A program made the translations under genes and the position numbers. Under the pieces are notes generated by a model that was not told the DNA's origin, searched no databases, and saw only the letters and a list, made by a program, of their open reading frames with translations. Source: Lachnospiraceae bacterium (lineage in GTDB: Bacteria > Bacillota > Clostridia > Lachnospirales > Lachnospiraceae). From it: a stretch of DNA of 64,000 nt. The stretch is taken from the NCBI GenBank assembly GCA_017525525.1, contig JAFXSQ010000017.1, positions 57,973-121,972 of the forward strand. The letters are read 5' to 3'. Below are positions 7,394-56,731 of this stretch, in pieces; position 1 is the stretch's first letter, and the number at the start of each line of letters is the position of its first letter.

Positions 7394-7530
7394 TATGCAC
7401 ACGCACGCGTAATGAAATTAGCCGCTTTGCGGCACGCGTGTGGCGCAGCGATAAGTGAGACAGGAAATCTTTGATTTCCGTTGTCGAACTTATACAGAGT
7501 AGTAGGTTACGACTGCGTCTTACCTACTCG
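7394..7530 (-). repeat. Two-hairpin intergenic repeat, unit 1 (with an extra inserted hairpin)
   Basis: Read on the minus strand, this has hairpin A (CGAGTAGG pairing with CCTACT around GACGCAGTC) and hairpin B (inner stem GCCGC-AAA-GCGGC, conserved TTTCATTA, outer CACGCGT/ACGCGTG). Between them lies an additional hairpin containing GGAAATC/GATTTCC that is absent from the other six copies. It fills the gap between the secG terminator and rnr. Confidence 0.75.
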
Positions 7531-7557
7531 ATAATATATATTTGGGGGATGTGCAAT

Positions 7558-9714
7558 ATGGAAGAGAAAAACAACGATAGTATTGATAGCAACATTAAAG
7601 AAAGGCTTGAGAAGTTCATATACTCACCTGAGTATAATCCCATGAAGCTCAAAGACATATATTTTGTGTTGAATGTTCCGTCCGACAAAAGGTCGGAGGT
7701 TGAGCAGGCTTTGGGTGAGCTTATCAATGAGGGGAAGGTACACTTAAGCAAGAAGGGAAAGTACAAGCCTTTGGATGTACAGCTTATCGAGGGTACATTT
7801 ATAGGAAATAAAAAGGGTTTTGGCTTTGTTGCGGTTGAAGGCGAGCAGGAGGATTATTTTGTTCCCGCAAGAGATGCCATGGATGCATTTCACGGTGATA
7901 AAGTCCTTATCGAGCCGAGGGAGAGCTCGCGCTCGGGCAAGAGTCACGAGGCTAAGGTAGTCAAGATCCTGGAGAGAGGCTTTACGAAGATTGTAGGTAC
8001 CTTTGAGAAGCAGAAGGGCTTTGGTTTTCTGATCCCTGACAACAGGAAGATAGCTGACGATATCTTCATCCAGGGCGAGGATTCCATGGGCGCCATGACC
8101 GGACATAAGTGTGTGTGTGAGCTGACGAGTTACGGCAGCAAGGGCAAGTCGCCAGAGGGTAAGATAATCGAGATTATAGGGCATGTAAATGATCCGAAGA
8201 CAGACATGATCTCCGTGGTTAGGGCTTACGACATACCGATTGAATTTCCCGAGGATGTTATGAAATACCTAGACGAGATACCCGAGGAGGTATCGGAGGA
8301 AGAGCTTAAAGGCCGTGAGGATATGCGTGATTGGCTGACTATCACGATAGACGGAGAGGATGCAAAGGACTTAGACGATGCAGTTACACTTACCATCGAG
8401 GATGATGTGTACACTTTAGGAGTGCATATTGCTGATGTTACGCATTATGTGAAGGAGAAGTCACCCCTTGACAAGGAGGCCTTAAAGCGCGGTACAAGCT
8501 GCTATCTTGTGGACAGTGTAATACCCATGCTTCCCCATAAGCTTTCCAACGGTATATGTTCACTTAACCATGATGTCGACAGGCTTACGCTTTCGTGCAT
8601 TATGCGCTTTGACAAGACCGGTAAGCTGCTTGATCACCGTATAGTTGAAGGTGTGATTAATGTTAATAACCGTATGAATTATACGGATGTGAATAAGCTT
8701 TTGAACAAGACGGACGATGCTCCGGTGATGCAGTATATGCACCTTATGGAGATGCTTGAGAACATGAAGGAGCTGTCACGGATTCTTCGTGAGAAGAGGG
8801 AAAAGAGAGGCTCGATAGACTTCGATGTTCCCGAAACCAAGATAATTGCCGATAAGGACGGAAAACCTGTAGAGATAAAGCCTTACGACAGGAATACGGC
8901 AACCATGCTCATCGAGGACTTTATGCTTGCGGCCAACGAAACCATCGCCGAGGATTACTTCTGGCAGGAGCTTCCCTTCGAGTACAGAGTTCATGAACAG
9001 CCTGATACCGAGAAGATGGATAACCTGAGAGTGTTCCTGAATAATTTCGGTGTGTTTACAAAGCCTTCGCGGGATGAAATCCATCCCAAGGAGCTTCAGA
9101 AGATATTAAAGGCCATCGAGGGAGAATCCTACGAAGCTCTCATATCCAAGATTATGCTTCGTTCCATGAAGCAGGCAAGATATTCTACTGTGTGCAGCGG
9201 GCACTTCGGACTTTCGTGCAAGTATTACTGCCACTTTACATCTCCCATAAGGAGATACCCGGATTTGCAGATACACAGGATAATCAAGGAGAATATCAAC
9301 GGTACCTTAGATGAAAAGCGCATTGCTCATTATCATTCGATTCTCGGGCAGGTAAGCGATGATAATTCCATCAAGGAGAGGCGCGCCGAAGAAGCTGAGC
9401 GTGAGGTGGTAAAGCTCAAGGAGATAGAGTATATGTCCGAGCACATAGGCGAGGAGTTTGACGGTGTCGTGTCCGGAGTAACCTCTAATTTCGTGTTCGT
9501 AGAGCTTGAGAATACGGTGGAAGGAGCAGCTTCGGTTGCGGATATGTTCGACGACCTCTACTTCTTTAAGGAGGACGAGTATGCCATGGTCGGCGAGAAG
9601 ACAGGTAACCGCTACACTTTGGGTGACAAGGTAAGGGTCAAGGTCTTAAAATGTGATAAAATCAAAAAAAGCATTGATTTTTCGATAATTAGTGGTAATA
9701 TAGATAAGTCTTGA
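7558..9714 (+). CDS. rnr: Ribonuclease R (718 aa)
   Basis: RNase R is a 3'-to-5' exoribonuclease that degrades structured RNA and, with SmpB and tmRNA, removes non-stop mRNAs. The order is a winged-helix region (about 10-70), two cold-shock-like domains (about 75-220), the RNB catalytic domain with its metal-binding aspartates in [11 protein letters not shown] (about 265-275), and a C-terminal S1 domain (about 632-712). ATG 7558 follows GGGGGA; the frame is open upstream to 7471 but without a better start. No lysine-rich tail like that of E. coli RNase R is present. It lies directly before smpB, consistent with a shared trans-translation role. Confidence 0.95.
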
Positions 9715-9730
9715 AACAGGAGATATATGT

Positions 9731-10201
9731 ATGGCGAAGAAGACGGGTGTAAAGCTTATAGCCAACAATAAAAAAGCATATCATGATTTCTTTATAGAAG
9801 AAACCTTTGAGGCAGGCATAGCGCTTGTAGGTACTGAAGTCAAGTCCTTAAGACAGGGCTCGTGCAGTATCAAGGAGGCCTTCATAAGGGTTGAGAAGGG
9901 TGAGGTATATGTATACCAAATGCATATTGCTCCTTACGAAAAGGGCAATATCTTTAATCGCGATCCTCTCCGTATAAGAAAGCTTCTTCTTCACAGAACT
10001 GAGATAAACAGGCTGATTGGCCAGCAGAAGATGAAGGGCTACACCATAGTTCCTCTTCAGGTTTATTTCAAGGACAGTCTTGTCAAGATAGAGATAGGTC
10101 TTGCGCGAGGCAAGAAGCTCTATGACAAGCGTGAGGATATAGCTAAAAAGGATGCGGCAAGAGAAGCTGCAAGGGACTTCAAGATAAGAAATCTTGAGTA
10201 A
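9731..10201 (+). CDS. smpB: SsrA-binding protein SmpB (156 aa)
   Basis: SmpB binds the tRNA-like part of tmRNA and brings it to stalled ribosomes. The hallmarks are [19 protein letters not shown] near residues 35-55, the [10 protein letters not shown] segment, and the C-terminal [12 protein letters not shown] followed by a basic helix. The length is normal. ATG 9731 lies 16 bases after the rnr stop with GGAG upstream, so it is probably co-transcribed with rnr. The tmRNA gene is 590 bases downstream. Confidence 0.96.
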
Positions 10202-10284
10202 TAATTATGCGTACGGGTTTGTGGCGGCATAATGCTGCTTCAAAGCGCAAATTTGAAATAAATAATATCAGAGGAGATGTAACA

Positions 10285-10671
10285 ATGAGTCAGGCAAAGG
10301 TCGATAAATACAAGGAAGAGAAGAAAAACAGGGAAAAGAATATGAAGAAAGCCAAGGCAAAGAAGGCTGCCGCAGTAGTTATCTGTGCATGTCTCGCAGG
10401 CCTTATCATAGGCTATCCCGTAGGTAAAGGACTTTACAAGGTATCCAAAAAAAACAGAGATGCCAACGCTACATTTGCCGCAACGGCTTATGATACCTGG
10501 TTTAACCAGAAATGGGCAGGAAACTACAGCGGAATCATCCCTGAGGCTTCAGATACCGATGCCGAGGTTTCCGAGGACACATCAAGTGAGGATACAGAGT
10601 ACATGGATGAGATGATGGATGAAATCGGACTTGATGCTACAGATTTTGAACAGGTTACTACGGAGCAGTAA
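10285..10671 (+). CDS. Small membrane-anchored protein of unknown function (128 aa)
   Basis: GAGGAGAT lies just before ATG 10285; the longer frame from 10207 has no such signal. The layout is a very basic Lys/Glu/Arg N-terminus (residues 1-27), one membrane helix (about 28-48, AAAVVICACLAGLIIGYPVG), then an outward-facing domain with a WFNQKW motif and an acidic Asp/Glu/Ser/Thr-rich tail. The basic-in, acidic-out pattern gives an N-in topology. The position between smpB and ssrA suggests it may be made with them, but no family or function is recognised. Confidence 0.65.
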   Translation: MSQAKVDKYKEEKKNREKNMKKAKAKKAAAVVICACLAGLIIGYPVGKGLYKVSKKNRDANATFAATAYDTWFNQKWAGNYSGIIPEASDTDAEVSEDTSSEDTEYMDEMMDEIGLDATDFEQVTTEQ

Positions 10672-10681
10672 TCAGTTTATT

Positions 10682-10700
10682 AAAACGGTTGTTACCGTTT
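10682..10700 (+). terminator. Weak hairpin after the small membrane protein gene
   Basis: AAACGGT pairs with ACCGTTT over a TGTT loop. The following T-run is short and interrupted, so this may be a weak terminator or only a stem protecting the 3' end. Confidence 0.35.
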
Positions 10701-10710
10701 AACAAAATTT

Positions 10711-10783
10711 GTCATTCTGAGCGTTAGCGAAGAATCTTAAATAACAACAAATAAGATCCTTCGCTTGCGCTCAGGATGACACG
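10711..10783 (+). repeat. Short GTCATCCTGAG-type repeat, inverted pair
   Basis: Two copies face each other: GTCATTCTGAGCG to AGAATCTTA, then TAAGATCC to CTCAGGATGAC. Transcribed, they would fold into one long hairpin that ends seven bases before the 5' end of tmRNA. Confidence 0.8.
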
Positions 10784-10790
10784 CAATTCC

Positions 10791-11134
10791 GGGGTTGTAC
10801 CGGTTTCGACAGGAGCTTAGAAATTATGGTAGCCGTCCGTGGAGTCTGACCACGTTAAAACGGACAATTTAAAAATAAACGCTGATACAGATTACGCGTT
10901 AGCAGCCTAGGCGCTGCTCGTCAGGAGCGGGAGGTCCGCAGACCGCACACCGGCGTCGACGAATGCGGAAAACTCTGTTGTCAAAGCTTTGAGATAGCAG
11001 AAAATCTATGAAGCTACCGAGGCAGTCAGCCTGCTTGTGGGCGGTCGGTTGAGGGAATAATAAAACATAAGCTGTGGCGGAAGAAGCTGTAATGGAAGGG
11101 CTTTTGGACGCGGGTTCGATTCCCGCCAGCTCCA
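10791..11134 (+). ncRNA. ssrA: Transfer-messenger RNA
   Basis: tmRNA rescues stalled ribosomes by acting as a tRNA and then as a short mRNA for a degradation tag. The 5' end GGGGTTG pairs with CAGCTCC at the 3' end to form the acceptor stem. ACCGGTTTCGACAGG is the conserved 5' block, and GGGTTCGATTCCC is the T-arm. The tag frame ends ADTDYALAA followed by TAG (stop 10908-10910), ALAA being the ClpXP signal. The resume codon is not certain; the same frame is open back through DNLKIN. The discriminator A is 11134 and CCA is not encoded. The gene follows rnr and smpB. Confidence 0.95.
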
Positions 11135-11180
11135 TAAAAATAAAGAGGGATTTATTCCCTCTTTATTTTTATGGAGCTGG
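11126..11180 (+). terminator. tmRNA terminator: perfect 25-bp palindrome overlapping the tmRNA 3' end
   Basis: Bases 11126-11150 are perfectly complementary to 11156-11180 around a 5-base loop. The inner part (TAAAGAGGGA stem followed by TTTATTTTT) is an ordinary terminator. The outer nine pairs, however, are the tmRNA acceptor strand CCAGCTCCA and an exact inverted copy of it, so a read-through transcript could sequester the acceptor end. Confidence 0.85.
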
Positions 11181-11181
11181 A

Positions 11182-11267
11182 TGCGCAGGGACACCGTAAT
11201 GTAGATGTCAGCTAGAGCTGACCGGTGCCCCGCGCACGAGTAGGGGCGACTTCGTCTTCCCTACTCG
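11182..11267 (-). repeat. Two-hairpin intergenic repeat, unit 2
   Basis: On the minus strand, hairpin A is CGAGTAGGG pairing with CCCTACTCG around GACGAAGTC. Hairpin B has the inner stem GTCAGCT/AGCTGAC, the conserved ATCTACATTA and outer GCGC/GCGC and CACCG/CGGTG pairs. The unit is nearly the same as unit 3 but inverted. Confidence 0.75.
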
Positions 11268-11298
11268 AATATATTCTCGCCGGCCTCGTAAAAAACAC

Positions 11299-11327
11299 TT
11301 GACAATTAAGATATATGCGAGTATCTT
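11299..11327 (+). promoter_or_regulatory. Promoter of the cobalamin-riboswitch transcript
   Basis: A consensus -35 TTGACA (11299-11304) and TATCTT (11322-11327) are 17 bases apart. The transcript would start about 20 bases before the aptamer. Confidence 0.75.
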
Positions 11328-11354
11328 ACTGATTTGTGAAAAACATAACGAAAA

Positions 11355-11530
11355 GCTTTGAGGTGCCTTTGATTATGCTTTAAGCATAAGGCCAAAGGGT
11401 AAAAGGGAAACAGGTGAAAGTCCTGTGCGAACTCGTCACCGTGACGCGGAGTTTTTAAGCCATTTATGTCACTGGAGCAATCCGGGAAGGCGGCTTAAGA
11501 ATGATGAGGCTAAGCCGGGAAACCTGCCTT
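11355..11530 (+). promoter_or_regulatory. Cobalamin riboswitch aptamer
   Basis: The conserved blocks appear in order: TTTGAGGTGCC (P2), GGGTAAAAGGGAAACAGGTG, AAGTCCTGTGCGAACTCGTC, the variant GTCACTGG, CCGGGAAGGCGG, and the B12 box read here as AGCCGGGAAACCTGCC. These bind adenosylcobalamin or a related cobalamin and normally repress the gene downstream. The terminator at 11605-11638 is the probable expression platform. Confidence 0.92.
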
Positions 11531-11604
11531 GATGTCTGGTACATAAGATCACGAGTAATTGGTCGTGCCGTAAGGGAAGGTTTAAAAAGCCTTTGTTTTT
11601 ATGT

Positions 11605-11638
11605 GCCTGGATTCCTTTAAAGGAATCAGGGCTTTTTT
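11605..11638 (+). terminator. Riboswitch expression-platform terminator
   Basis: GCCTGGATTCCTTT pairs with AAAGGAATCAGGGC and is followed by six T residues. It lies between the aptamer and the ribosome site of the CbiK-like gene, so cobalamin binding would be expected to favour termination. An antiterminator partner was not worked out. Confidence 0.75.
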
Positions 11639-11675
11639 ATGTTTGAAATATAATATAAACGGAGGCATAACAAAA

Positions 11676-12950
11676 ATGAGAAAGAAAGTTTTAACTGCAG
11701 TCCTTGCAACCGCCATGACAGCCGCTTTGCTTGCAGGCTGTGGCAAGAAGGAAGAGACAACGGCGACAACCGCAGCTACAACAACCGAGGCTGCTACGGA
11801 GGCTAAGGAGACTGAAGCTGAAAAGACTACTGAGGCTACCGAGGAAGAGACAACCACAGAGGATCAGGCCGCTGCCGACAAGGCCGCAGCTGATGAGGTT
11901 GTTGCATTGATTGACGCTATATATGTACAGGAGTGGACACCGGATACAGATGCACAGTGTGCTGCAGCTAAGCAGGCGTGGGATGCGCTTACCGATGAGC
12001 AAAAGGAGCTTGTTGAAGGCGAGGAGGCCGATCCCGATTATTTCGGAAGAGACACAGGCGATGCATCAAAGGATGATCCGAGAAATGCAGATGATATAGG
12101 TGAGAACGAGATACTTGTAGTAAGCTTCGGAACATCTTTTAACGACAGCCGTGTTGAGGATATAGGCGGTATCGAGAAGGCTATAGAGGAGAGTAATCCG
12201 GACTGGTCTGTAAGAAGGGCGTTTACGGCACAGATTATCATCAACCACGTACAGGCGCGTGACGGTGAGAAGATTGATAATGTCGAGCAGGCTTTAGAGC
12301 GCGCTGTAGCAAACGGAGTTAAGAACCTGGTTGTTCAGCCCACACATCTTATGCACGGAGCTGAGTATGACGAGTTTAAAGAGGCTGTGGACAAATATGC
12401 TGACAAGTTCGAGAGTGTGAAGATATCAGAGCCGCTCCTGGGTGAGGTTGGAGCTACTGGTGAAGAAATCAACTCTGACAAGGAAGCAGTTGCAAAGGCA
12501 GTTACTGACGAGGCAGTTAAGGAATCCGAGTATGACAGCCTTGATGCTGCAAAGGAAGACGGAGCTGCATTCGTATTCATGGGCCACGGTACATCTCACA
12601 CAGCAAAGGTTACTTACACTCAGATGCAGAGCCAGATGAAGGCTTTAGGCTATGAGAATGTATGGATCGGAACAGTTGAGGGCGAACCCGAGGAGACCTC
12701 ATGTGAAAATATTATAGACGCAGTTGCAGAAGCGGGTTATACTAAGGTTATCCTTCGTCCGCTTATGGTTGTTGCAGGTGACCACGCTAACAACGATATG
12801 GCAGGCGAGGACGAGGATTCATGGCAGTCCATGTTCTTTAACAGCGGAAAGTTCACTTCGGTTTCATCTCAGATTTCAGGCTTAGGAAGAATTGACGCAG
12901 TTAAGGAGCTCTATGTACAGCATGTAAAGGCTGCTATGGAAGCTGAGTAA
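11676..12950 (+). CDS. CbiK-like cobalt chelatase / tetrapyrrole-binding lipoprotein (424 aa)
   Basis: The start is ATG 11676, with GGAGGC upstream. A lipoprotein signal peptide ends in LLAGC (Cys22). Residues 25-70 are a Thr/Glu/Ala linker, and about residues 143-424 match the CbiK family of anaerobic sirohydrochlorin cobaltochelatases. The usual metal-site motifs are present: PTHLMHGAEY with His224 (corresponding to Salmonella His145) and FMGHGT with His304 (corresponding to His207). CbiK is normally cytoplasmic, but this protein is predicted to be anchored outside the membrane. Periplasmic CbiK versions are known in Desulfovibrio. It lies first behind the riboswitch and before the B12 transporter, so a corrinoid or metal capture role is as likely as chelation for synthesis. 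Confidence 0.85.
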   Translation: MRKKVLTAVLATAMTAALLAGCGKKEETTATTAATTTEAATEAKETEAEKTTEATEEETTTEDQAAADKAAADEVVALIDAIYVQEWTPDTDAQCAAAKQAWDALTDEQKELVEGEEADPDYFGRDTGDASKDDPRNADDIGENEILVVSFGTSFNDSRVEDIGGIEKAIEESNPDWSVRRAFTAQIIINHVQARDGEKIDNVEQALERAVANGVKNLVVQPTHLMHGAEYDEFKEAVDKYADKFESVKISEPLLGEVGATGEEINSDKEAVAKAVTDEAVKESEYDSLDAAKEDGAAFVFMGHGTSHTAKVTYTQMQSQMKALGYENVWIGTVEGEPEETSCENIIDAVAEAGYTKVILRPLMVVAGDHANNDMAGEDEDSWQSMFFNSGKFTSVSSQISGLGRIDAVKELYVQHVKAAMEAE

Positions 12951-12981
12951 GCAAAAAAATAAGATAAGGATTTTATACTTT

Positions 12982-13926
12982 ATGAAAAAGAAGATAGGTT
13001 TCAGGAATACCGGATTGTTTATGTGTCTGGCCGCCTGCCTGATGCTCTCAGGCTGCGGAAACGGCGCGAAGGACGGGGGAAAGGACACGGCTGCCACTAC
13101 GGCAACTGTGTCCGAAGAATCCAAAACCACAGAGAAAAAAACGGATACGGAAGTTGTTTCGGAAACAACCACCGAAGCTGAAGATAAGTCTGAAAAGGAT
13201 CCATCAAAGCTTGACTTGGCCGACGGTCAATATCTTGCGGATTTTGACACCGACAGCTCTATGTTTCGCATCAATGAGATGTATGACAATAAGGGGCTGC
13301 TTACCGTAAAGGATGGAAAAGGCACGATATATATCGTTATGCCTTCTACCAAGATACAGCAGCTTTATCTTGGACTTGCCGAGGATGCAAAAAAAGATGG
13401 CGCAGAGCTGATTGAACACACGGTTGAGAGTGTGACCTATGATGACGGACTTACCGAAGATGCTAATGCATTTGAAGTGCCTGTTCCGGTGCTTGATGAG
13501 GAATTTGACCTTGCGCTTATCGGTGAGAAGGGCAAGTGGTATGACCACAAGGTTAAGGTATCTAACCCCGTTCCCGCTGTTGAAGAAGAGCCTTTGGGCG
13601 TGAAAGATGCTTCTACGGAAGGTGTGTCCGGAGAAACCGCGGATACGGTAAATATCACTTTAGAAGGCGGTACAGGAAAAGCAAGCATTAAATCCCCGGC
13701 CGAATACACGGTAAAGGACGATGCCTATGTTGTAAGGCTTGAATGGAGCAGTCCTCACTATGATTACATGATAGTGGACGGAGAAAAGTACATTCCGGTC
13801 AATACCGAAGGAAACTCGGTATTTGAGATACCGTTTAAGAATATATCCGAGCCGGTGACAGTCATTGCGGATACCACGGCAATGAGTGCGCCGCATGAGA
13901 TAGAGTATACAATTTCATTTAATTAA
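12982..13926 (+). CDS. Surface lipoprotein with two beta-rich repeats, NEAT-like (314 aa)
   Basis: The signal peptide ends LMLSGC (Cys25) and is followed by a Thr/Glu/Lys linker (28-70). Two related beta-rich modules follow (about 75-195 and 212-314). The second contains LEGGTGKASIKSPAEYTV, SSPHYDYMIVDGEKY and ADTTAMSAPHEIEYT. This pattern is seen in Firmicutes surface proteins of the haem/iron-uptake type, and I judge it NEAT-like with moderate confidence. It lies 31 bases after the CbiK-like lipoprotein and before the transporter genes, so it may bind a tetrapyrrole or corrinoid at the surface. The ribosome site is weak, suggesting translational coupling. Confidence 0.65.
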   Translation: MKKKIGFRNTGLFMCLAACLMLSGCGNGAKDGGKDTAATTATVSEESKTTEKKTDTEVVSETTTEAEDKSEKDPSKLDLADGQYLADFDTDSSMFRINEMYDNKGLLTVKDGKGTIYIVMPSTKIQQLYLGLAEDAKKDGAELIEHTVESVTYDDGLTEDANAFEVPVPVLDEEFDLALIGEKGKWYDHKVKVSNPVPAVEEEPLGVKDASTEGVSGETADTVNITLEGGTGKASIKSPAEYTVKDDAYVVRLEWSSPHYDYMIVDGEKYIPVNTEGNSVFEIPFKNISEPVTVIADTTAMSAPHEIEYTISFN

Positions 13927-13936
13927 ACATGTAAAT

Positions 13937-14022
13937 CGATCAGGGAAGACGCAGTCGAACCCTAATCGCGCGCGGTGCACCGGTCAACTTAAGCTGACAT
14001 CTACATATCGGTGCACCTGCGC
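13937..14022 (+). repeat. Two-hairpin intergenic repeat, unit 3
   Basis: Hairpin A is CGATCAGGG/CCCTAATCG around GACGCAGTC. Hairpin B has outer GGTGCACCG/CGGTGCACC, inner GTCAACTTAAGCTGAC and conserved ATCTACATAT. It abuts unit 4 in the same orientation. Confidence 0.75.
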
Positions 14023-14024
14023 AA

Positions 14025-14109
14025 TCGAGTAGGGAAGACGCAGTCGCACCCTAATCGCCGTGCCGACCGCGTGCCGCAAAGCGGCTGATTACATTACGCG
14101 GTCGTGCAC
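14025..14109 (+). repeat. Two-hairpin intergenic repeat, unit 4
   Basis: Hairpin A is CGAGTAGGG with CCCTAATCG. Hairpin B has outer GACCGCGT/ACGCGGTC, inner GCCGC-AAA-GCGGC and conserved GATTACATTA. It is almost identical to unit 6 at 54394, 40 kb away. Confidence 0.8.
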
Positions 14110-14116
14110 ATAATAA

Positions 14117-14142
14117 AGCCCACGACATTTATGCCGTGGGCT
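14117..14142 (+). terminator. Hairpin before the btuF-like gene (terminator or attenuator)
   Basis: AGCCCACG pairs perfectly with CGTGGGCT. The T-run is poor on the plus strand (GGTTTGAATTT) and moderate on the minus strand. It ends 11 bases before the ATG at 14154 and covers the place where a ribosome site should be, so it could also hinder translation. Confidence 0.5.
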
Positions 14143-14153
14143 GGTTTGAATTT

Positions 14154-15350: not shown

Positions 15351-15356
15351 GACTAT

Positions 15357-16361: not shown

Positions 16362-16373
16362 CAGGTACAATAT

Positions 16374-18668: not shown

Positions 18669-18699
18669 GATCCTTCGGTCTTTGCACTCAGGATGACAC
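18667..18699 (-). repeat. Short GTCATCCTGAG-type repeat
   Basis: On the minus strand it reads GTCATCCTGAG to GGATCTT. It begins inside the stop codon of the fusion gene and fills the whole gap before cobT, whose only ribosome-site candidate (AGGA) lies within it. Confidence 0.75.
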
Positions 18700-18706
18700 G
18701 ACAATT

Positions 18707-19786: not shown

Positions 19787-20319
19787 TAACACTTATAATC
19801 GGAATTCCCGACTGCGGCAAGTCAGCCTTGGCCGAGCAGTTGACGGTTGAGAACAGTATAAAAGAAGAACGTGTATATATCGCAACCATGATTCCCTACG
19901 GTGAGGAGGGAAGGCAGAGGGTGCTGAAACACAGAAAACTCAGGGCAGGGAAGGGATTTAGGACGATTGAGTGCCCGGGTAAGCTTGAAGAGATCGGTGA
20001 TGAGCTTAATGACGATGGTTCTCACGTCTGCCTATTGGAGTGCCTGACTAACCTGTGCGGGAATATAATGCATATGGATAAATATATCAATAAAACCACG
20101 GAAGAATTATGCGATATTATAACCGAAGATATAGTCGGATTTTCCGAAAAATGTAAAGCCCTGTATATAGTATCTAATGAATTCGATGCTTCGGACAGCA
20201 GTTATGATGATGAAACCGTGAAATATATCAGACTTGTAAAAAAGGTCAATGAAGCGCTCAAATCAAGGGCTGACAGATGCTACATCTACGAGGGAGGTGC
20301 GATTATGACGAAGTCATAA
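19783..20319 (+). CDS. cobU: Adenosylcobinamide kinase / guanylyltransferase, divergent (178 aa)
   Basis: CobU phosphorylates adenosylcobinamide and transfers GMP to it. The P-loop here is GIPDCGKS, where most members have GGxRSGKS. The middle keeps the HRKLRAGKGFRTIE segment with the nucleotide-linked histidine region, and LLECLTNLCGN replaces the usual LVDCLTLWLSN. The C-terminal third is divergent. The call rests on these motifs and on its position between cobT (4-bp overlap) and cobS. Confidence 0.82.
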   Translation: MITLIIGIPDCGKSALAEQLTVENSIKEERVYIATMIPYGEEGRQRVLKHRKLRAGKGFRTIECPGKLEEIGDELNDDGSHVCLLECLTNLCGNIMHMDKYINKTTEELCDIITEDIVGFSEKCKALYIVSNEFDASDSSYDDETVKYIRLVKKVNEALKSRADRCYIYEGGAIMTKS

Positions 20320-20330
20320 TTTTGCATCGC

Positions 20331-20405
20331 ACCGACTTTCGTCATAAGGGGTACCGCGAAGCGGTGGATTCCTTATGACATAAGACTGGGCAGGATTGCT
20401 TTAGC
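20331..20405 (-). repeat. Partial copy of the 140-bp composite repeat
   Basis: Only the central palindrome is kept: GTCATAAGG (20380s on the minus strand) through the ACCGC/GCGGT core to CCTTATGAC. The outer arms have diverged. It fills the gap between cobU and cobS. Confidence 0.65.
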
Positions 20406-20446
20406 AATCGTGCCATTACATATTATACGAGGAGGTTTTATTCTGC

Positions 20447-40831: not shown

Positions 40832-40837
40832 GAAGAA

Positions 40838-42991: not shown

Positions 42992-43055
42992 TGTGCGCGT
43001 ATTTCGTTTAGATAACGTAAGATACCGGAAATAAAAACAGGATTTGTTTTGTAAT

Positions 43056-44012: not shown

Positions 44013-44024
44013 TAAACAGAAGTA

Positions 44025-44127
44025 AATGCGTTGAGGTGCAGGCCTTCGATGTCATAAGGAATCCACCGCAAGCGGTACCCCTTATGACGAAATGCGAGGG
44101 CTTGCGAAGCAACATGAAGAGTCTTAA
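44025..44127 (+). repeat. 140-bp composite palindromic repeat, copy 2 (left end missing)
   Basis: It begins at GCGTTGAGGTGC and lacks GTCATCCTGAG and the left half of the first hairpin. The rest is nearly identical to copies 1 and 3. It lies between the permease and epimerase genes. Confidence 0.85.
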
Positions 44128-44141
44128 CGGAGGAAATAAGA

Positions 44142-44987: not shown

Positions 44988-45035
44988 CACAAGTATTGTA
45001 ATTCTGAAGAAGTGTCATCATGAACGAAAGTGAAG
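44961..45035 (-). repeat. Short GTCATCCTGAG-type repeat overlapping the epimerase 3' end
   Basis: GATTCTTCGCTTCGCTCAGA to ATGAC (minus orientation) is followed by a degenerate plus-oriented copy from GTCATCATGAACG. The first copy encodes the epimerase C-terminus. Confidence 0.7.
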
Positions 45036-45064
45036 GCGCTTACTAATAAACTTGGAGTTAACAA

Positions 45065-46411: not shown

Positions 46412-46417
46412 ATCAGT

Positions 46418-46555
46418 GTCATCCTGAGCGTGGCGACGCAGACCTCAATGCGAAGCGTTGAGGTGCCGGCCTTCGATGTCATAAGGAATCCACCGCAAGC
46501 GGTACCCCTTATGACGAAATGCGAGGGCTTGCGAAGCAACAGGAAGGATCTTAAA
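46418..46555 (+). repeat. 140-bp composite palindromic repeat, copy 3
   Basis: This is a full-length copy beginning GTCATCCTGAGCG and ending GGAAGGATCTTAAA. It is nearly identical to copy 1, 6.7 kb away, and occupies the whole gap between the exporter ATPase and the methyltransferase. Confidence 0.9.
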
Positions 46556-46569
46556 ATAAGGAGTATTAA

Positions 46570-48855: not shown

Positions 48856-48909
48856 TTCAAATAAAAAGTAACAGAGCCCGCAAGAAAGCTGCGGGGAATT
48901 GGGAAAGAG
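48805..48909 (+). repeat. Pair of 45-bp direct repeats, 60 bp apart
   Basis: 48805-48849 and 48865-48909 match except at one base (C/T at 48840/48900). Each encodes KVTEPARKLRGIGKE in the methyltransferase frame, but a stop at 48853-48855 separates them and the second copy is followed by TAA. Confidence 0.9.
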
Positions 48910-48925
48910 TAAGAAAGGATATAAT

Positions 48926-51202: not shown

Positions 51203-51268
51203 TAGTGCTGTTTTCAATTCAGCAACACATAATGATATACAAAATCTACAAAAGAAAGGGGTTATGAT

Positions 51269-54200
51269 ATGAAGAAGAAATCTATTTTCAGAAAGAAGCT
51301 TATGACTGCCGCTGTTTCTTTGGCAGCTTCATTTGCGCTCACTCTGACATCATTTCCGGTACCGGCCCGCGCAGCCGAAACAGAGTCGGAAAGCGAGTCG
51401 ACAACCGAAGACAAGTATCTGACCGAATTCCCTGAAAACAAAGAGATTCCTCTCACGAATCTCAATATTCCGTATGAGGATGTGTGCTACGTTTATCAGG
51501 AAAGACCTGAAAAATACGTGATACTTCCCGGAGATACGGTTGTGTTTACTCCGGATGAGATTGAGCTTACCGAGCAAATAGGATACTACGGTCAAAAGGA
51601 ATTGAAAGGATCGGGAACTGTGGACTTTCTACCGATTCACGATCCGGATGACACCTATGTTCCGAAGAAGGAGCTTTCCGAAAGCAGCTTTATTAACGGA
51701 GCTACCTATCAGGTAGGTACAATCAAATCAAACGGAACCGATTACGAGACAAATGCTATCCCTGATCAGACGGAGGTATCGGAAAGAACAGCTAAGGTAG
51801 GGTTTGTAAACGATTCCGACAGCATCATTCGTTTCGCGGGTTCGGCAGGCTGGGGTCCATATGACAAGCTTGAGGTCTTTGATATGTCCGGCGGAGCACC
51901 TGCGGCTATACTTTCAATCTACTACAGACAGCATTCAATGGAATATAAATATGTTGATGTGGATCATTACTTTAGCTATACAACTGAGGATAGCGACGCA
52001 ACATGGCAGGGCAGCGAATCACTTCTTCCGAAGAAGTATTCGATTCGAAATAATGTAGACAAGTATACACTTTACTTCCCTTGTCCTGTGGCAGAGGGAA
52101 AGCACTTCTGGCAATACTACATAACCGCTGATGAAGAAGGCGGATACACGCCTTCTTTGGATTTGAATGTATTCTATAATGACAATGACTACAACGTCAA
52201 AGGACAGCGTATGATCGCCTATAATTATGAATTAACTTCTGATTACGATTCGCAGTATGGCGATTACACTCTGAAGGCTCTTTTCATAGAGGGCGATACC
52301 ATGACACTTGACGGAAACGGAGGAACGGTAGAAGGACAGTCTAAGTGGATTGCAGAGCTCGATAGCGTACCGTCCGAAGAGAAATATGTGTACGCAGGAA
52401 CCTCGCGTGCAATCAACTTAAACGAAGACTTCAATGTGGTAAGAGACGGATACACCGTTGCAGGCTGGTACTATATGATTGATGAAGACGGTACAGAAGA
52501 AAGACATGCCTTCTACGGCTTTGGTGATGACAGAACATATTATACAGAATCCTACGGTTTGGACTACTATCTCAGTAACGAGGATGTTAAAAAGCTTTAC
52601 CCTGTATGGGTTGACTCCGAGGGCAACTACAGCGATCCTAACACCGGTCTTACTACACCACTTGAAGAAGTGATCATACCTAAGGAAGATGACACTACTG
52701 AGGATGATACAACTGAGGATGATACAACTGAGGGTGACAGCACAGAAAGCGACACTACCGAAGATGATAATCCGGGAGAAGAGATAACAAATCGAGAATT
52801 TCATACTGAATGCACTTACGACGCCGATAAGTATGAGGACGGATTCATAGCGATTGCTTCCTATAAGTATTATGAAAACGGCGTTGAGATTACGGATGCA
52901 CCGTTTTATTTCACACCTGCCGATGACGAAACTCTCGCAGAATTCGATGCAAAAGGCATTCATTTCATGGATCCGAGGATTGCGGCTGCAGGATATGACG
53001 AGAATACAATAGCTGCATTTGTGGACTATGACGGCTCCTGGACCGAATCATCTTTCTTATCTTATAAAGTCGGATTCTGGGACAATGGCAGCGGTACTTG
53101 GAAAATAGACACATATATCAATATGCCATACAATAAACCTGTTTGGATAACCGATAACAGTGCAACCGGCGAAGGCGCTGCCGCAAAGGACAGCTTCGTA
53201 ATTGAGTTTGAAGATTACTTCAATGATTACACCGACTATAAAGCTTATGTATATGATGAGCTTTCCGGCTCCGGCAAGGCTGAAGTAGAGAAGACCTTGG
53301 CAGCCAACGAGAAAGCTCTTGCATGCTTTACCACGATGCTCATGGTAGACAACGGCAACGGCCCCAGTCTTATTAACAATAAAGACGTCCTGCTGTTTTT
53401 CAGACCGGACGAGAATACCTTTGAACGCTGTGATGAATATGTATGGTATGAGCTTAAAAACTACAAAAAAGCCGGTTCATTTGACCCCGAATTCAGCAGT
53501 GCCGGAATCGGTGCGAACGTAAAAAGCACGGGAACTTACCTGCTGGTGGGTATCAACCATAGTACTTCGATTGAGAAAGCCACCGTATCGGGCCTTAAGA
53601 CCTCAGCTTACACAGGTAAGGCTATCACACCTGCCGTAACAGTTAAACTTGACGGCAAGACGCTTAAGAAGGGTACCGATTATGATGTAACATATGCCAA
53701 TAACACTAAGGCAGGTACAGCTACGGTAACTATCACAGGTAAGGGCGACTACTCAGGTACCATAACCAAGAAGTTCCTTATCAAGAAGATCAACTTTAAG
53801 TACAGAGCTTATGTACAGAAGAAGAACTGGATGTCATGGTCTACAGCCAACGTATCAGGTACATCAGCATCGACTATGGCCGGAACAACCGATAATCTCA
53901 GGATGGAGACAATCCAAATGCAGCTTGCCGGCGTATCCGGTGAAGTCAAGTATCGCGCCTATGTAGAAAAGATTGGCTGGACACAGTGGGCAACCACAGC
54001 GGATACAAAGACCTACGCAGGTACCAAGGGTATGTCAAGAAGAGTAGAGATGATACAGCTTAATGCTTCGGGCCAGGTTGCAACACTCTACGATATGTAC
54101 TACAGAGCTTACTCAGAGAAGTTTGGCTGGCTCGGATGGGCTAAGAGTGGAGAGAAGGCAGGTTCTGCCGGATACGCAAGAAAGCTCGAGGCCTTCCAGG

Positions 54201-54295
54201 TTAACTTCGTAAGAAAGGGAGAGAGCTTCAAGCTCACGTCCGACAGGACCAAGTGCTTCTATGACAAATCAAAAGACGGAGCTAATCCTAAGTAA
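51269..54295 (+). CDS. Large secreted surface protein with InlB-like, YDG and ChW-like repeats (1008 aa)
   Basis: A signal peptide (residues 1-35, ending ARA) precedes a large beta-rich region. About residues 345-400 resemble an InlB-type B-repeat (TLDGNGGTVEG, GYTVAGWYY). Residues about 470-500 are an acidic TTEDD repeat linker. A YDG-like module (about 770-845, AYTGKAITPAVTVKLDGKTL) is followed by three hydrophobic-W (ChW-like) repeats built on YRAYV-x-x-GW-x-x-W (about 845-995). The fold suggests cell-surface adhesion. No LPXTG or SLH anchor is seen, so the ChW repeats may do the attaching. It is the last plus-strand gene before the strand switch. Confidence 0.82.
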   Translation: MKKKSIFRKKLMTAAVSLAASFALTLTSFPVPARAAETESESESTTEDKYLTEFPENKEIPLTNLNIPYEDVCYVYQERPEKYVILPGDTVVFTPDEIELTEQIGYYGQKELKGSGTVDFLPIHDPDDTYVPKKELSESSFINGATYQVGTIKSNGTDYETNAIPDQTEVSERTAKVGFVNDSDSIIRFAGSAGWGPYDKLEVFDMSGGAPAAILSIYYRQHSMEYKYVDVDHYFSYTTEDSDATWQGSESLLPKKYSIRNNVDKYTLYFPCPVAEGKHFWQYYITADEEGGYTPSLDLNVFYNDNDYNVKGQRMIAYNYELTSDYDSQYGDYTLKALFIEGDTMTLDGNGGTVEGQSKWIAELDSVPSEEKYVYAGTSRAINLNEDFNVVRDGYTVAGWYYMIDEDGTEERHAFYGFGDDRTYYTESYGLDYYLSNEDVKKLYPVWVDSEGNYSDPNTGLTTPLEEVIIPKEDDTTEDDTTEDDTTEGDSTESDTTEDDNPGEEITNREFHTECTYDADKYEDGFIAIASYKYYENGVEITDAPFYFTPADDETLAEFDAKGIHFMDPRIAAAGYDENTIAAFVDYDGSWTESSFLSYKVGFWDNGSGTWKIDTYINMPYNKPVWITDNSATGEGAAAKDSFVIEFEDYFNDYTDYKAYVYDELSGSGKAEVEKTLAANEKALACFTTMLMVDNGNGPSLINNKDVLLFFRPDENTFERCDEYVWYELKNYKKAGSFDPEFSSAGIGANVKSTGTYLLVGINHSTSIEKATVSGLKTSAYTGKAITPAVTVKLDGKTLKKGTDYDVTYANNTKAGTATVTITGKGDYSGTITKKFLIKKINFKYRAYVQKKNWMSWSTANVSGTSASTMAGTTDNLRMETIQMQLAGVSGEVKYRAYVEKIGWTQWATTADTKTYAGTKGMSRRVEMIQLNASGQVATLYDMYYRAYSEKFGWLGWAKSGEKAGSAGYARKLEAFQVNFVRKGESFKLTSDRTKCFYDKSKDGANPK

Positions 54296-54304
54296 AGAGA
54301 ATAA

Positions 54305-54390
54305 TCGAGTAAGACAGACGAAGTCGCACCTTACTCGCTGCGCCGCCCACGTGTTACAAAGTGACAATTTACATTACGCGGGCGTGTGCA
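54305..54390 (+). repeat. Two-hairpin intergenic repeat, unit 5
   Basis: Hairpin A is CGAGTAAG/CTTACTCG around GACGAAGTC. Hairpin B has inner GTTAC-AAA-GTGAC, conserved TTTACATTA and outer GCCCACGT/ACGCGGGC. It is a tandem neighbour of unit 6 and shows compensatory changes against it. Confidence 0.8.
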
Positions 54391-54393
54391 TAA

Positions 54394-54479
54394 TCGAGTA
54401 GGGAAGACGCAGTCGCACCCTACTCGCCGTGCCGACCGCGTGCCGCAAAGCGGCTGATTACATTACGCGGTCGTGCACA
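54394..54479 (+). repeat. Two-hairpin intergenic repeat, unit 6
   Basis: Hairpin A is CGAGTAGGG/CCCTACTCG. Hairpin B has inner GCCGC-AAA-GCGGC and outer GACCGCGT/ACGCGGTC. It is nearly identical to unit 4. Confidence 0.82.
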
Positions 54480-54480
54480 T

Positions 54481-54519
54481 AGAAAAGGCACCCAATTTTC
54501 GAAGTTGGGTGCCTTTTCT
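54481..54519. terminator. Bidirectional intrinsic terminator between converging genes
   Basis: A perfect 15-bp stem (AGAAAAGGCACCCAA with TTGGGTGCCTTTTCT) has T-runs on both strands. It can end the surface-protein transcript from the left and the recombinase transcript from the right. Confidence 0.92.
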
Positions 54520-54556
54520 TAAAATATCTATTGATTTTTGATTAGATCCGTGATAT

Positions 54557-54584
54557 AGTTTACATAATATAATTACTGTTTATT
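54557..54584. other. Candidate dif-like Xer recombination site
   Basis: AGTTTACATAATATA (54557-54571) equals the XerD-side arm and centre of the Bacillus subtilis dif site as I remember it; the other arm is not conserved. It overlaps the stop codon of a Xer-type recombinase gene and lies exactly where gene direction flips. The call is an inference from these three facts. Confidence 0.45.
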
Positions 54585-55647
54585 TATTGTTTCTGTGTTC
54601 ACGAAGCTCGACCTTGTTCCTGTTGGTTCGCTTCTTATAATCATCCATATCGGCATAGTGCTTACGGGTAGTATTGACATCATTATGGCCGAGGACGTCC
54701 GCAACGAGGTAAATATCGCCGGTTTCGTTGTAAAGCGCCGTACCGAAGGTACTACGAAGCTTGTGAGGAGTTATTTTCTTTAATGGGACGGAAGCACCTG
54801 CGTATTTCCGTACCATTTTCTCGACAGCACGGACCGTAATCCGACTTTTACGGTTTGAAAGAAAGAGAGCGTTCTCAGAGCCCTTTACGGCGTCGATTTT
54901 CTTTCTTTCCTTGATATAGTCTTTAAGAGGGCCTAAGGCTTCGTCAGAGAAGTATACGATACCTTCCTTGCCGCCTTTTCGGATGATCTTTAAAGAAGTG
55001 TTCTCAAGATCGACATCATTCATGTCCAGGCCGACACACTCGGATATACGGATTCCGGTGCTTAACATCAGGGTCAATAAAGCCAGGTCTCGAACATGTG
55101 TTTTCTCGTGAAACGCAAGCTGATGTTCGGTAAGATTGTTTCCGAATTCGACCGTATCGAGGAAATTCGCGGTTTCGGCAGCATCCATACGCACAATGTT
55201 CTTGGAATGAAGCTTGGGCATATCGACCTTGGATACCGGGTTCTGAGTCACCATATCATGCTTATAAAGATACTTGTACATGACGCTTATTGCACAGAGC
55301 TTTCTTTTGATCGTAGCCTCGGAATTCTTGCGTAATTTACCCGTACGAGGATCCCTGTAATGCTGAAGGTGATACAGATAATCCTCAATGAATTCGTGAT
55401 CGACCTTAGAGAGCAAATCCAAGGATATGTCCATATATGATTCAACCTTGGAATCGGTCCAGGACTCAACGATGTAATCAAAGAAATGCTGAATCTCACG
55501 TGCGTACATAAGACGCGTTCTTGGACTGTGTGTCTGTGAAATGCCTCTGAAAAAGGTTGTCACATAACGGGGCATCTGCCGGGTGATGTTGTCGACGTAC
55601 TCGAGACTTTCGAGTTCAACCTGTTCGTGATAAGTTAATTCGGCCAT
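54580..55647 (-). CDS. Tyrosine recombinase, Xer-type (355 aa)
   Basis: The N-terminal half has a core-binding SAM-like domain (MPRYVTTFFRGISQTHSPRT, with a helical bundle to about 150). The catalytic domain carries Arg in LMLSTGIRISECVGL, the lysine hairpin KIIRKGGKEG, the ITPHKLRSTFGTAL box, LGHND and the nucleophile tyrosine in TRKHYADMDD. The length of about 355, longer than XerC/XerD, resembles the single-recombinase XerS group. ATG 55647 is preferred over 55656, which lies only two bases from AAGGAG. A dif-like sequence overlaps its 3' end. No phage genes are nearby, so chromosome-dimer resolution is more likely than phage integration. Confidence 0.85.
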   Translation of the reverse strand: MAELTYHEQVELESLEYVDNITRQMPRYVTTFFRGISQTHSPRTRLMYAREIQHFFDYIVESWTDSKVESYMDISLDLLSKVDHEFIEDYLYHLQHYRDPRTGKLRKNSEATIKRKLCAISVMYKYLYKHDMVTQNPVSKVDMPKLHSKNIVRMDAAETANFLDTVEFGNNLTEHQLAFHEKTHVRDLALLTLMLSTGIRISECVGLDMNDVDLENTSLKIIRKGGKEGIVYFSDEALGPLKDYIKERKKIDAVKGSENALFLSNRKSRITVRAVEKMVRKYAGASVPLKKITPHKLRSTFGTALYNETGDIYLVADVLGHNDVNTTRKHYADMDDYKKRTNRNKVELREHRNNK

Positions 55648-55766
55648 GATGATCATTTCTCCTTAAATATAGAATTTGCCGCCGGAAATGCGTACGGCGC
55701 TACTCTCGGTTTTATAAGGCATATTTATTCTTAAAACCTGAGTTTTGCGAACAAATACTTATCTTT

Positions 55767-55795
55767 AATATACTACTCTCACGCCGAAAAGTCAA
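55767..55795 (-). promoter_or_regulatory. Promoter of the tyrosine recombinase
   Basis: On the minus strand TTGACT (55795-55790) and TATATT (55772-55767) are 17 bases apart. The untranslated leader is about 110 bases and includes a small GCCG/CGGC hairpin. Confidence 0.65.
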
Positions 55796-55892
55796 GTAAA
55801 ATATGGGGGTTCCGTGGATTTTTATTATGTTTTTTATTCGAATAATTATATCTTTTTCAAAGTATACAAATGATGAAAAAGTAAATTGAAAT

Positions 55893-55925
55893 GTGTCATC
55901 CTGAGCGCAGCGAAGGATCTTTTTA
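55893..55925 (+). repeat. Short GTCATCCTGAG-type repeat between recombinase and unknown gene
   Basis: GTCATCCTGAGCGCAGCGAAGGATCTTTTT reads as one arm, and TTCTTCGCTGCGCCGG just beyond (55936-55950) can pair with its middle. In this 307-base gap I see only this repeat and the recombinase promoter. Confidence 0.75.
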
Positions 55926-55964
55926 AGACCATTTTTCTTCGCTGCGCCGGACAAGAATATTTGA

Positions 55965-56420
55965 CTATGCAGCCTTATTAAGCTCAAGGTTGCGGCACTC
56001 GATACGCACCGGACGTATCTTCTCCGTAAAGTCGTCTATCTTCTCAACCTCTGTTACAAGGTGTATTGCAAAGGCATATACGCCGTCTGTATATATAAAG
56101 TCGTGTGTGCCGTCCTTGCGCTCGTGAAGCCTCAAAGCCACATTGCACACGCTCATGCCCGGAAATTCGATGTTTGCTGCCACATCGCGCTTTATCAGGC
56201 GCTCCATGGTCTCCTCCATACTCCACTGCTTACTGCAGTTAGGCTTCTCCCTGGTGCCGCTTGTAAGGTCTGCGTAGTAAAGCCTGAGCTTGTCGAGACC
56301 TCTGGAGTTGCAGATAACTCTGTGGAACATATCGGCCATAACCTCGGTCATAGCACACTCGAGCTGATAAATCTTAGTCATAGGGTTCTTGTAATCTGTT
56401 CTAAACATAGGACATACCAC
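55965..56420 (-). CDS. Unknown protein (151 aa)
   Basis: I do not recognise the family. The protein is soluble, with five cysteines and a mixed alpha/beta pattern. Its second half (YTDGVYAFAIHLVTEVEKID, then PVRIECRNLEL) is strand-rich. AAAGGTGG precedes the ATG at 56420; a second in-frame ATG at 56408 has better spacing and may be used. It is preceded by an approximately 310-base structured leader with a consensus promoter, which is unusual for so small a gene and suggests regulated expression. The codons fit the rest of the window. Confidence 0.65.
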   Translation of the reverse strand: MVCPMFRTDYKNPMTKIYQLECAMTEVMADMFHRVICNSRGLDKLRLYYADLTSGTREKPNCSKQWSMEETMERLIKRDVAANIEFPGMSVCNVALRLHERKDGTHDFIYTDGVYAFAIHLVTEVEKIDDFTEKIRPVRIECRNLELNKAA

Positions 56421-56731
56421 CTTTCTTTTAAAAATGTAAATGTGTTTTTTTAATTCAAGTAGGTAAGACGCAGTCGCATCCTACTTGTTGTGCCGCCCGC
56501 TTGTCACGAAGTGACTATCTCATTAAGCGGGTGTGTGCATAAATAGTCCCTCCGGCAGGTACTTTGCCTGTAGCGGCCGGAGCGGTATTTAATTGTCAAA
56601 GTACGTTAAGAAAGCTGGGTACAAAAAAAGGTACCTGACTTGTTGATAAAAGGACAGACTTATAGCCCTTATCAACTTATCATCTACCTTCCTATGAAAT
56701 AAGAATCTAAAAACTTCCCTGATGAGAAGTA
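56421..56731 (-). ncRNA. Long structured leader upstream of the 151-aa protein
   Basis: From the promoter at 56738-56766 the minus-strand transcript would cross three structures. The first is a hairpin GTTGATAAGGG/CCTTTTATCAAC (about 56642-56676). The second is CTCCGGC/GCCGGAG at 56550-56582, whose inner strand GTACTTTG (56559-56566) can pair instead with CAAAGTAC (56597-56604). The third is repeat unit 7. The alternative pairings resemble a regulatory leader, but no known riboswitch class is recognised. Confidence 0.45.
56456..56540 (+). repeat. Two-hairpin intergenic repeat, unit 7
   Basis: Hairpin A is CAAGTAGG/CCTACTTG around GACGCAGTC. Hairpin B has outer CCCGCTT/AAGCGGG, inner GTCAC-GAA-GTGAC and conserved ATCTCATTA. 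Its stem changes relative to unit 6 are compensated on the partner strand. Confidence 0.8.

Follow-up and report, generated by a model that had tools for sequence, protein, structure and literature searches.

A terminator-associated two-hairpin repeat of Lachnospiraceae, probably a non-autonomous mobile element

The window analysed here, 64,000 nucleotides of a Lachnospiraceae genome (contig JAFXSQ010000017.1), contains seven units of a repeat of about 90 nt in which two unlike hairpins, A and B, stand in fixed order; the genome as a whole carries roughly a hundred copies. We consider it probable that the repeat is a non-autonomous, REP/BOX-like mobile element, inserting directly behind intrinsic terminators. 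A mobile DNA element is likelier than a functional RNA gene because of four features: the copy number, the presence of a third module (C) in some copies, the placement and orientation with respect to terminators, and the absence of units at two orthologous sites in a sister species. All of these were overlooked in a preliminary description. Its seven units were all found, within 1-2 bases of where it had put them. They are given here with the hairpins next to them; those at 7356-7383 (with an MFE statistic), 11131-11173 and 56550-56582 were read from the sequence.

7395-7531, minus strand: unit 1, A-C-B (R1 match 7391-7535, minus strand, 64.9 bits)
about 7501-7531, about 7451-7500 and about 7395-7450, minus strand: hairpin A, module C and hairpin B of unit 1
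7356-7383: terminator hairpin and T-run facing the B end of unit 1, behind the upstream plus-strand ORF 6952-7341
10791-11137, plus strand: tmRNA (Rfam scan)
11131-11173: terminator hairpin of the tmRNA; unit 2 has its B end towards it
11181-11268, minus strand: unit 2, A-B2, antisense to the tmRNA and immediately past its terminator
13936-14024, plus strand: unit 3, A-B2, first of a tandem pair with unit 4
14025-14111, plus strand: unit 4, A-B1, second of the pair
14116-14142: terminator-like hairpin next to unit 4 on its B side, kept in the sister species, which has no units there
54305-54391, plus strand: unit 5, A-B1, first of a tandem pair with unit 6
54394-54480, plus strand: unit 6, A-B1, second of the pair
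54483-54520: terminator hairpin, with an A-run and a T-run, adjoining the B end of unit 6; the ORFs on either side, 51269-54295 (plus) and 54580-55656 (minus), converge
56455-56540, plus strand: unit 7, A-B1
56550-56582: GC-rich hairpin bordering unit 7 on its B side

The units follow a common A/B plan, as had been described, but do not share a single layout: the unit at 7394 has an extra 50-nt third hairpin, module C, seated inside the 3' arm of hairpin A. In all seven, hairpin A bears the GAC-GNA-GTC tip attributed to it, and hairpin B combines a one-sided unpaired stretch with an outer stem and an inner hairpin, whose length of 5 or 6 bp defines two subtypes. The motif thought to be fixed in that stretch does occur, as ATTACATTA, but is not universal (TATCTCATTA at 56455, ATCTACATATC at 13936); the alternative stems quoted are likewise present, but hairpin A contains mismatches at 13936 and 14025 (CGATCAGGG/CCCTAATCG and CGAGTAGGG/CCCTAATCG). 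The foot of hairpin A, AATCGAG, is conserved and its tip varies; hairpin B closes with a GCAT end. Across copies the make-up is modular, built from A, B1, B2 and C, with a variable number of units and tandem arrays of 2-4.

Folded as RNA, the seven window units give z scores of -4.0 to -7.7; as DNA, on the same strand, six give -4.0 to -7.2 and the unit at 54305-54391 just -1.7. In an alignment of 14 B1 units, of which the window supplies four, 97.8% of cells are paired, against 89.5% in column shuffles, which preserve column make-up and not row relatedness, and at most 49.5% when the partner is slid by 1-3 columns, which preserves relatedness. The same holds in 49 units from 25 other genomes of 23 genera, none of which entered model building: 97.6% paired, 80.5% shuffled, at most 51.9% slid, with double-sided changes in 26 of 29 pairs. 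The preliminary description took covariation to indicate selection on structure. Structure is indeed conserved through double-sided stem changes, but such covariation is by itself no proof that each copy is under selection, since hairpin-templated correction or the swapping of whole modules could also produce such changes. A rival account makes the units decaying repeats, their stems altered by hairpin-templated correction or inter-copy recombination and not by selection. Recombination or deletion is visible in a B2/B1 chimera (the second copy at L008) and in shortened units (C7:16742 and C22:54864), and module C is near-identical among copies whose A stems differ; an architecture kept in those 49 units outlasts expected decay, however, and decay leaves the placement at terminators unexplained, so that we hold this account to be very improbable.

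Which strand folds, and as which nucleic acid, is harder to read from the stems. On the A-to-B strand, G-T pairs outnumber A-C by 95:55 in alignment A4 and 47:22 in A5, in counts that exclude rows with fewer than 60% Watson-Crick pairs; without the single richest column the ratios are 67:55 and 31:22, and the excess is then not significant. The strand call from wobble pairs was dropped, as its significance came through one column. The tip GA[CT]NNN[AG]TC is present in 71 of 111 distinct units, with a GNA loop in 56 of these 71. GNA minihairpins are treated for their stability in the excerpted text of PMC6479982; since GNA is common here and is not the usual tip loop in units of other genomes, it was demoted from a DNA signature to a hint. 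Support for folding as single-stranded DNA is weak.

In this genome a stable hairpin (-10 kcal/mol or lower over 60 nt, a value that 59% of the genome's random 60-mers reach) lies at the B end in 80 of 89 cases and at the A end in 26 of 88 (Fisher p 3e-17); -15 kcal/mol is reached by 79% of B ends against 20% of random 60-mers. Elsewhere the B end has one in 56 of 59 cases (38/40 plus 18/19) and the A end in 20 of 59 (17/40 plus 3/19). These come from 40 regions of other genomes, chosen from the best matches listed in the family survey, and from 19 of 26 further loci; left out were L062 (sister species) and six weak matches with a different layout (L071, L073, L074, L075, L085 and L086). The gene on the B side is directed at the element at 79 of 89 sites in this genome and at 42 of 55 in others, and points the opposite way at 10 of 89 and 13 of 55; the own-genome counts omit 4 of 93 clusters, which lie at contig ends. 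Between co-directional genes one orientation prevails by 41:8 in this genome and 27:3 elsewhere. Past the GCAT end the flank is A-rich (A at 0.90, 0.73, 0.75, 0.70 and 0.71 over the first five bases of 63 GCAT-ended clusters); the A-side flank of 87 clusters is near random beyond 5 bases, with no copy of the A-run seen in it. Eight riboswitch or T-box leaders were found on the B side, in scans of which one covered 20 chosen loci of this genome, and all eight aim their terminator at B: lysine (L223, L240), FMN (L232, L010), T-box (L254, L068, L072) and SAM (L084).

This arrangement could also be read as selection for benefit to the host, with the element staying in place as a second terminator, as a barrier to transcription or supercoiling or as protection of 3' ends, on DNA or on read-through RNA, and with one orientation selected. 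Placement and orientation relative to the terminator, together with the double-sided stem changes, are what such a role would lead one to expect, and REPs likewise lie near gene 3' ends (PMC3733652, in the part consulted). We nevertheless judge it unlikely: 27 of 37 genomes of the genus have no match and two orthologous sister sites are empty; units sit behind riboswitch and T-box attenuators, where a barrier is expected to harm expression; and hairpin A, on inspection, has a poor T-run on the gene strand.

A rather less likely alternative is an antisense or 3'-UTR RNA family, in which transcripts of the A-to-B strand would carry A and B as folded RNA and end at the adjacent hairpin. The strong RNA folding agrees with it, as do the 28 of 93 clusters flanked by convergent genes, where the A-side gene could transcribe A-B, and two distant copies (L071, L085) with a short GC hairpin and T-run behind B. 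Against this stand the 41 clusters between co-directional genes, in which the A-to-B strand is antisense; the lack of conserved sequence before A, where the flank is near random beyond 5 bases; a hairpin that appears to have no T-run on the A-to-B strand (L068); and the wobble bias, which is not significant outside one column.

Two orthologous sites are empty in the sister species: unit 2 is missing at the orthologous place in L087, and units 3 and 4 are missing while the neighbouring terminator-like hairpin is retained. The sites at 54305 and 56455 are uninformative there, because the syntenic place lacks the gene at 51269-54295 and coverage does not include 56455. At six orthologous sites both species have a unit, with different stems, which fits repeated insertion or conversion equally with fast evolution in place. 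Neither a target-site duplication nor an exact empty site could be demonstrated, since even the nearest relative, with about 72-87% DNA identity along neighbouring stretches, is not close enough.

The element is abundant and patchily distributed. A 14-copy model gives 114 matches in this genome, a few of them being one copy split across contig ends; some copies are identical over 137 nt, and contig ends bear identical A-C-B copies. The search of Lachnospiraceae genomes that had been proposed yielded matches in 85 of 397, and, in a survey that scored at most 42 candidates per genome, 10 of 37 genomes of the genus. Searches of phages and plasmids with one unit as query gave no match; one IMG/VR contig matched in two pattern scans. 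The belief that no named family has this layout is supported as far as Rfam goes: no Rfam family reached its gathering score on any unit of the window or of 80 loci. A permissive scan of 53000-58000 gave four matches, none of which reached its gathering score; the best, at E 0.025, covers the terminator that follows unit 6, and one at E 2.6 covers unit 7. We recognised no published account of the repeat in the portions of the open-licence literature consulted.

Several candidate mobilisers were considered and set aside. A Y1 transposase was rejected for the genus: PF01797 occurs in none of the 10 element-bearing genomes, this one included, and in 8 of the 27 others; some element-bearing genomes of other genera have it. 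No gene family recurs next to units in a manner suggestive of a mobiliser: of seven clusters of neighbouring genes present at three or more sites, one consists of units translated by chance, and the rest look, on reading, like common domains (surface-protein, GGDEF-like and transporter-like ones among them). Contig C59 (3.6 kb, with units at both ends) resembled an autonomous element, but it contains an FMN riboswitch, and its ORFs look chromosomal on reading (one ribD-like); we take it to be a plain contig broken at repeats. Retro-type mobility would be a special form of the reading we favour: a group IIC-like or other reverse transcriptase would insert an RNA copy behind terminators, much as group IIC introns go into intrinsic terminators (PMC4424553, in the section available), and one group II maturase domain of this genome adjoins a unit at C2. 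The maturase as mobiliser is unsupported, PF08388 being present in 2 of the 10 genomes of the genus that bear the element and in 3 of the 27 others, and the window units have no Rfam group II match; we give this form little credence.

Known systems offer partial parallels, as far as the excerpts consulted describe them. REP, BIME and REPIN sequences with RAYT are high-copy extragenic palindromes by gene 3' ends, in clusters and dimers, with subfamilies of alternative complementary stem residues (PMC3733652, PMC2817692). The present element differs in its two unlike hairpins, in direct tandem units, in being joined to terminators in mostly one orientation, in a genome devoid of Y1 transposase, and in its foot, which is AATCGAG in place of an unpaired GTAG/CGTC tag; the GTAG within CGAGTAGG is paired, and many copies have GCAG instead. 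BOX elements of Streptococcus pneumoniae are also small, interspersed and modular, and are thought non-autonomous; one is reported between T-box motifs, and mobilisation is proposed to depend on terminal inverted repeats resembling an IS (PMC3049150). Here the ends are unlike, AATCGAG and GCGCAT being, on inspection, not inverted copies. Group IIC introns share the terminator placement, insertion being in our case conjectural; a 90-nt unit with no reverse transcriptase or ribozyme match, and no co-occurring maturase, sets the repeat apart from them. IS200/IS605 transposases recognise subterminal secondary structures and work through single-stranded DNA intermediates (PMC6006769); their domain is the PF01797 missing from all ten element-bearing genomes of the genus. 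GA-cis RNA (RF02987) is also dispersed through this genome as a hairpin repeat, into which further hairpin modules, one of them C-like, may be inserted; its sequence and stems differ, and its model gives no match on the units.

The mobile-element reading would run as follows. Copies would have arisen by transposition, the GCAT end being joined to the T-run of an opposite-strand terminator, mostly in one orientation. It is probably the terminator DNA, and not the gene, that guides insertion, for the attenuators of riboswitch and T-box leaders are also used. Together with the A/T-rich linker that follows it, hairpin A looks like a weak terminator on that strand, and later copies could insert behind earlier ones, giving tandem arrays. 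A trans-acting enzyme, presumably one outside those found in this analysis, would read the folded strand, preferably as single-stranded DNA and possibly as RNA. Bolder, and possible more than probable, is the proposal that the repeats form a family-wide, previously undescribed class of mobile hairpin DNA that homes to terminators, attenuators included, and whose two-hairpin single strand is joined to the T-run end by a trans-acting enzyme of unrecognised kind.

The repeat is abundant and was met in roughly one in five of the genomes sampled from a single bacterial family, within a phylum, the Firmicutes, that rarely figures in the REP literature consulted; its terminator placement rule was met in the parts consulted of neither the REP nor the BOX literature. 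If mobility is true, the element would represent a second way for DNA to home to terminators, beside that of group IIC introns, and would point to a mobilising enzyme still to be named. Hairpins placed behind riboswitch and T-box attenuators may also affect the regulation that these leaders exert.

The window carries seven units of the two-hairpin repeat:

7395-7531, minus strand: unit 1, with the additional hairpin module C (type A-C-B)
11181-11268, minus strand: unit 2
13936-14111, plus strand: units 3 and 4
54305-54480, plus strand: units 5 and 6
56455-56540, plus strand: unit 7

The preliminary description had placed seven copies here, and these positions hold, direct reading and parsing agreeing within 1-2 bases; the common layout that it proposed is likewise present in all seven when read, parsed and folded. 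Hairpin A has the tip GAC-GNA-GTC in 7/7; hairpin B has an inner hairpin besides its outer stem and leaves a stretch unpaired on the 3' side, again in 7/7; AATCG.. and ..GCAT recur as unit ends. In unit 7395-7531, the 50-nt module C sits within the 3' arm of A. A chimeric unit at L008:1450-1539 fuses a 5' half of one hairpin-B subtype (B2) to a 3' half of the other (B1), with the joint near the common TTACCTTACG-like stretch and the outer stem broken. In the more distant genomes of loci L071, L074 and L085, a GC hairpin comes after the unit, together with a T-run or T-run remnant, and a longer hairpin around GGAAAT..ATTTCC lies beyond it; the element may therefore be longer there.

Conservation of the structure is solid, since pairing and double changes are found in training, own-genome and other-genome rows. 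The model R1 was trained on 14 A-B1 units of the own genome, 4 of the 7 window units included, so that its matches on those four are by construction; in the training rows 97.8% of cells are paired, double changes occur at 11 of 29 pairs, and pairing falls to 22-50% when partners are slid. Seven units of type A-B2 have 96.3% of cells paired. The own-genome stretches searched yield 105 matches (102 distinct rows, aligned to R1, which favours the model structure), 94.8% paired, with double changes at 29/29 pairs. That stems vary but stay paired, as first proposed, is borne out beyond the own genome by 49 units that were aligned to R1 but are not part of it (loci of 25 genomes, 23 genera): 97.6% of cells are paired, with double changes at 26 of 29 pairs, versus means of 80.5% and 16.1 pairs in the shuffled control. 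Wobble-pair support for the strand that folds is not solid, because G-T does not significantly outnumber A-C on the strand that reads from A to B once the single richest column is removed.

Polarity is the decisive pattern in what the units adjoin. In the own genome (3.19 Mb draft), R1 gives 114 matches at E<=0.001, in 93 clusters, some contig-end matches being halves of one copy; contigs C13 and C59, for example, match a single contig of the sister genome, one to each side of a unit. Just past the B end, the first 60 nt reach a folding energy of -10 kcal/mol or below in 80 of the 89 clusters with enough flank (median -21.3); past the A end they do so in 26 of 88 (median -7.9). The control of random own-genome 60-mers is less clear-cut at -10 kcal/mol, which 59% of them attain, than at -15, reached by 79% at the B end versus 10% at the A end and 20% of random 60-mers. 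A stem with 5 bp or more begins within 25 nt of the B end in 83/89 clusters; the T-rich side of the hairpin (>=4 T in 8) lies toward the element in 48 and away in 30 (Wilcoxon p 4e-4); and the B-side gene is directed at the element in 79/89, by simple ORF calls. Orientation is 41 versus 8 between co-directional genes; 28 clusters are flanked by convergent genes. Elsewhere, 59 units in other genomes have a hairpin at the B side in 56 and at the A side in 20, and the B-side gene is directed at the element in 42 of the 55 with an ORF call, looser than in the own genome.

Rfam scans of 80 loci find eight riboswitch or T-box leaders; the window holds a ninth leader:

L223, L240: lysine riboswitch
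L232, L010: FMN riboswitch
L254, L068, L072: T-box
L084: SAM riboswitch
window 11344-11545: cobalamin riboswitch (Rfam), on the A side of unit 2, 5' end toward the unit

All eight point their 3' end toward the unit's B end, 15-107 nt away; the terminator itself, rather than a gene end, thus seems to fix the place and orientation of the unit. In six (L232, L240, L254, L068, L072, L084) the leader and the next A-side ORF are co-directional, which would put the unit between the attenuator and the putative controlled gene. At L223 the nearest ORF call is opposite to the leader; at L010 the unit is at a contig end, with no ORF call on the A side. Unit 2 is located behind the tmRNA terminator. Genes for tRNA lie toward the B end in L255, L246 and L202, and at the A side in L052.

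The GA-cis RNA (RF02987; window 20289-20376; also L018, L021, L042/L022, L005, L058, L012, L054, L210, L219) behaves as a dispersed, partly tandem repeat in the own genome: 327 kb of its sequence contain 13 pattern hits (<=2 mismatches), several at contig ends. Some copies hold an inserted ~49-bp hairpin module and others lack it; two at L021 contain a C-like one. The classification of RF02987 as a simple RNA family may have to be reconsidered.

Empty sister sites, stem turnover, identical copies and the likeness of module C together point, at the level of sequence comparison, to a non-autonomous mobile element. The sister species (G012) has ~72-87% DNA identity to the own genome over neighbouring stretches and, at two window sites, the same genes without units. 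Behind its tmRNA there is no unit and the terminator sequence differs too; at the site matching 13923-14116 the units are missing and the terminator is conserved. At six further sites both species carry a unit, or what is left of hairpin A, with differing stems; turnover there is therefore faster than in the sequence around them, whether through fresh insertion, conversion or exchange of modules. A-C-B copies at L009, L010 and L019, all at contig ends, are identical over 137 nt, and module C is near-identical among copies with unlike A stems.

Three other features of the window may be recorded. An inverted repeat of the TGTCATTCTGAGCG...GAAGAATC type (10704-10783), just upstream of tmRNA, is missing at the orthologous G012 place and has many matching places elsewhere in G012. 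At the syntenic place G012 lacks the 1008-aa ORF (51269-54295) that precedes units 5 and 6; matches to window 51202 and 54556 are there about 60 bases apart. Near-identical coding stretches at 2417 and 6642, in ORFs 121-2658 and 6290-6883, suggest partial gene duplication.

Units are polar toward the terminator T-run and occur as tandem direct units; flank comparison reveals no duplicated flank around them. An enzyme acting in trans would read the two-hairpin strand and join the GCAT end of the element to the T-run end of the terminator palindrome; inserted copies could act as the next target, since on the same strand hairpin A and the A/T-rich linker after it look like a weak terminator, and this would account for the arrays. 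Single-stranded DNA is the preferred substrate, because terminators are palindromes able to fold in it and because tip loops in the own genome are frequently GNA (tip GA[CT]NNN[AG]TC in 71 of 111 distinct units, GNA loop in 56 of the 71), a loop that stabilises DNA minihairpins according to an excerpt of PMC6479982. GNA is not the usual loop in other genomes, which makes that argument weak, and an RNA intermediate may take the place of single-stranded DNA.

As to the enzyme, an IS200/IS605-type Y1 transposase is found in 0/10 element-bearing genomes of the genus (own included; several are incomplete drafts) and a group II maturase in 2/10; no neighbouring gene recurs tellingly beside units. 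On contig C2 of the own genome (14536-15101; L205), a group II intron maturase domain adjoins a unit, and the intron end apparently lies inside an arm of the neighbouring hairpin A (CTCGATT), as if that hairpin had served as intron target.

Matches occur in 18 genomes of a 99-relative set: 10/37 in the genus (own genome included), 6/24 in other genera of the family and 2/38 in other families of the order. Family-wide, at least 85 of 397 genomes match (ten candidates scored per genome); a class-wide sample gives 6/391, five of the same family, own genome included. With one unit as query, phage and plasmid collections give no match; pattern scans of IMG/VR match one contig.

The unit works like REP and BOX elements. 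It differs from REP in having no GTAG/CGTC tag, and the genus's element-bearing genomes have no RAYT, the REP partner; on these tests it does not count as a REP. The terminal repeats of BOX/MITE elements are not seen. Group IIC introns use the same target, intrinsic terminators (PMC4424553, in excerpt), but the unit has nothing of the intron body. The repeat is rated as one of the small, dispersed, structured repeats, and its placement rule as unusual.
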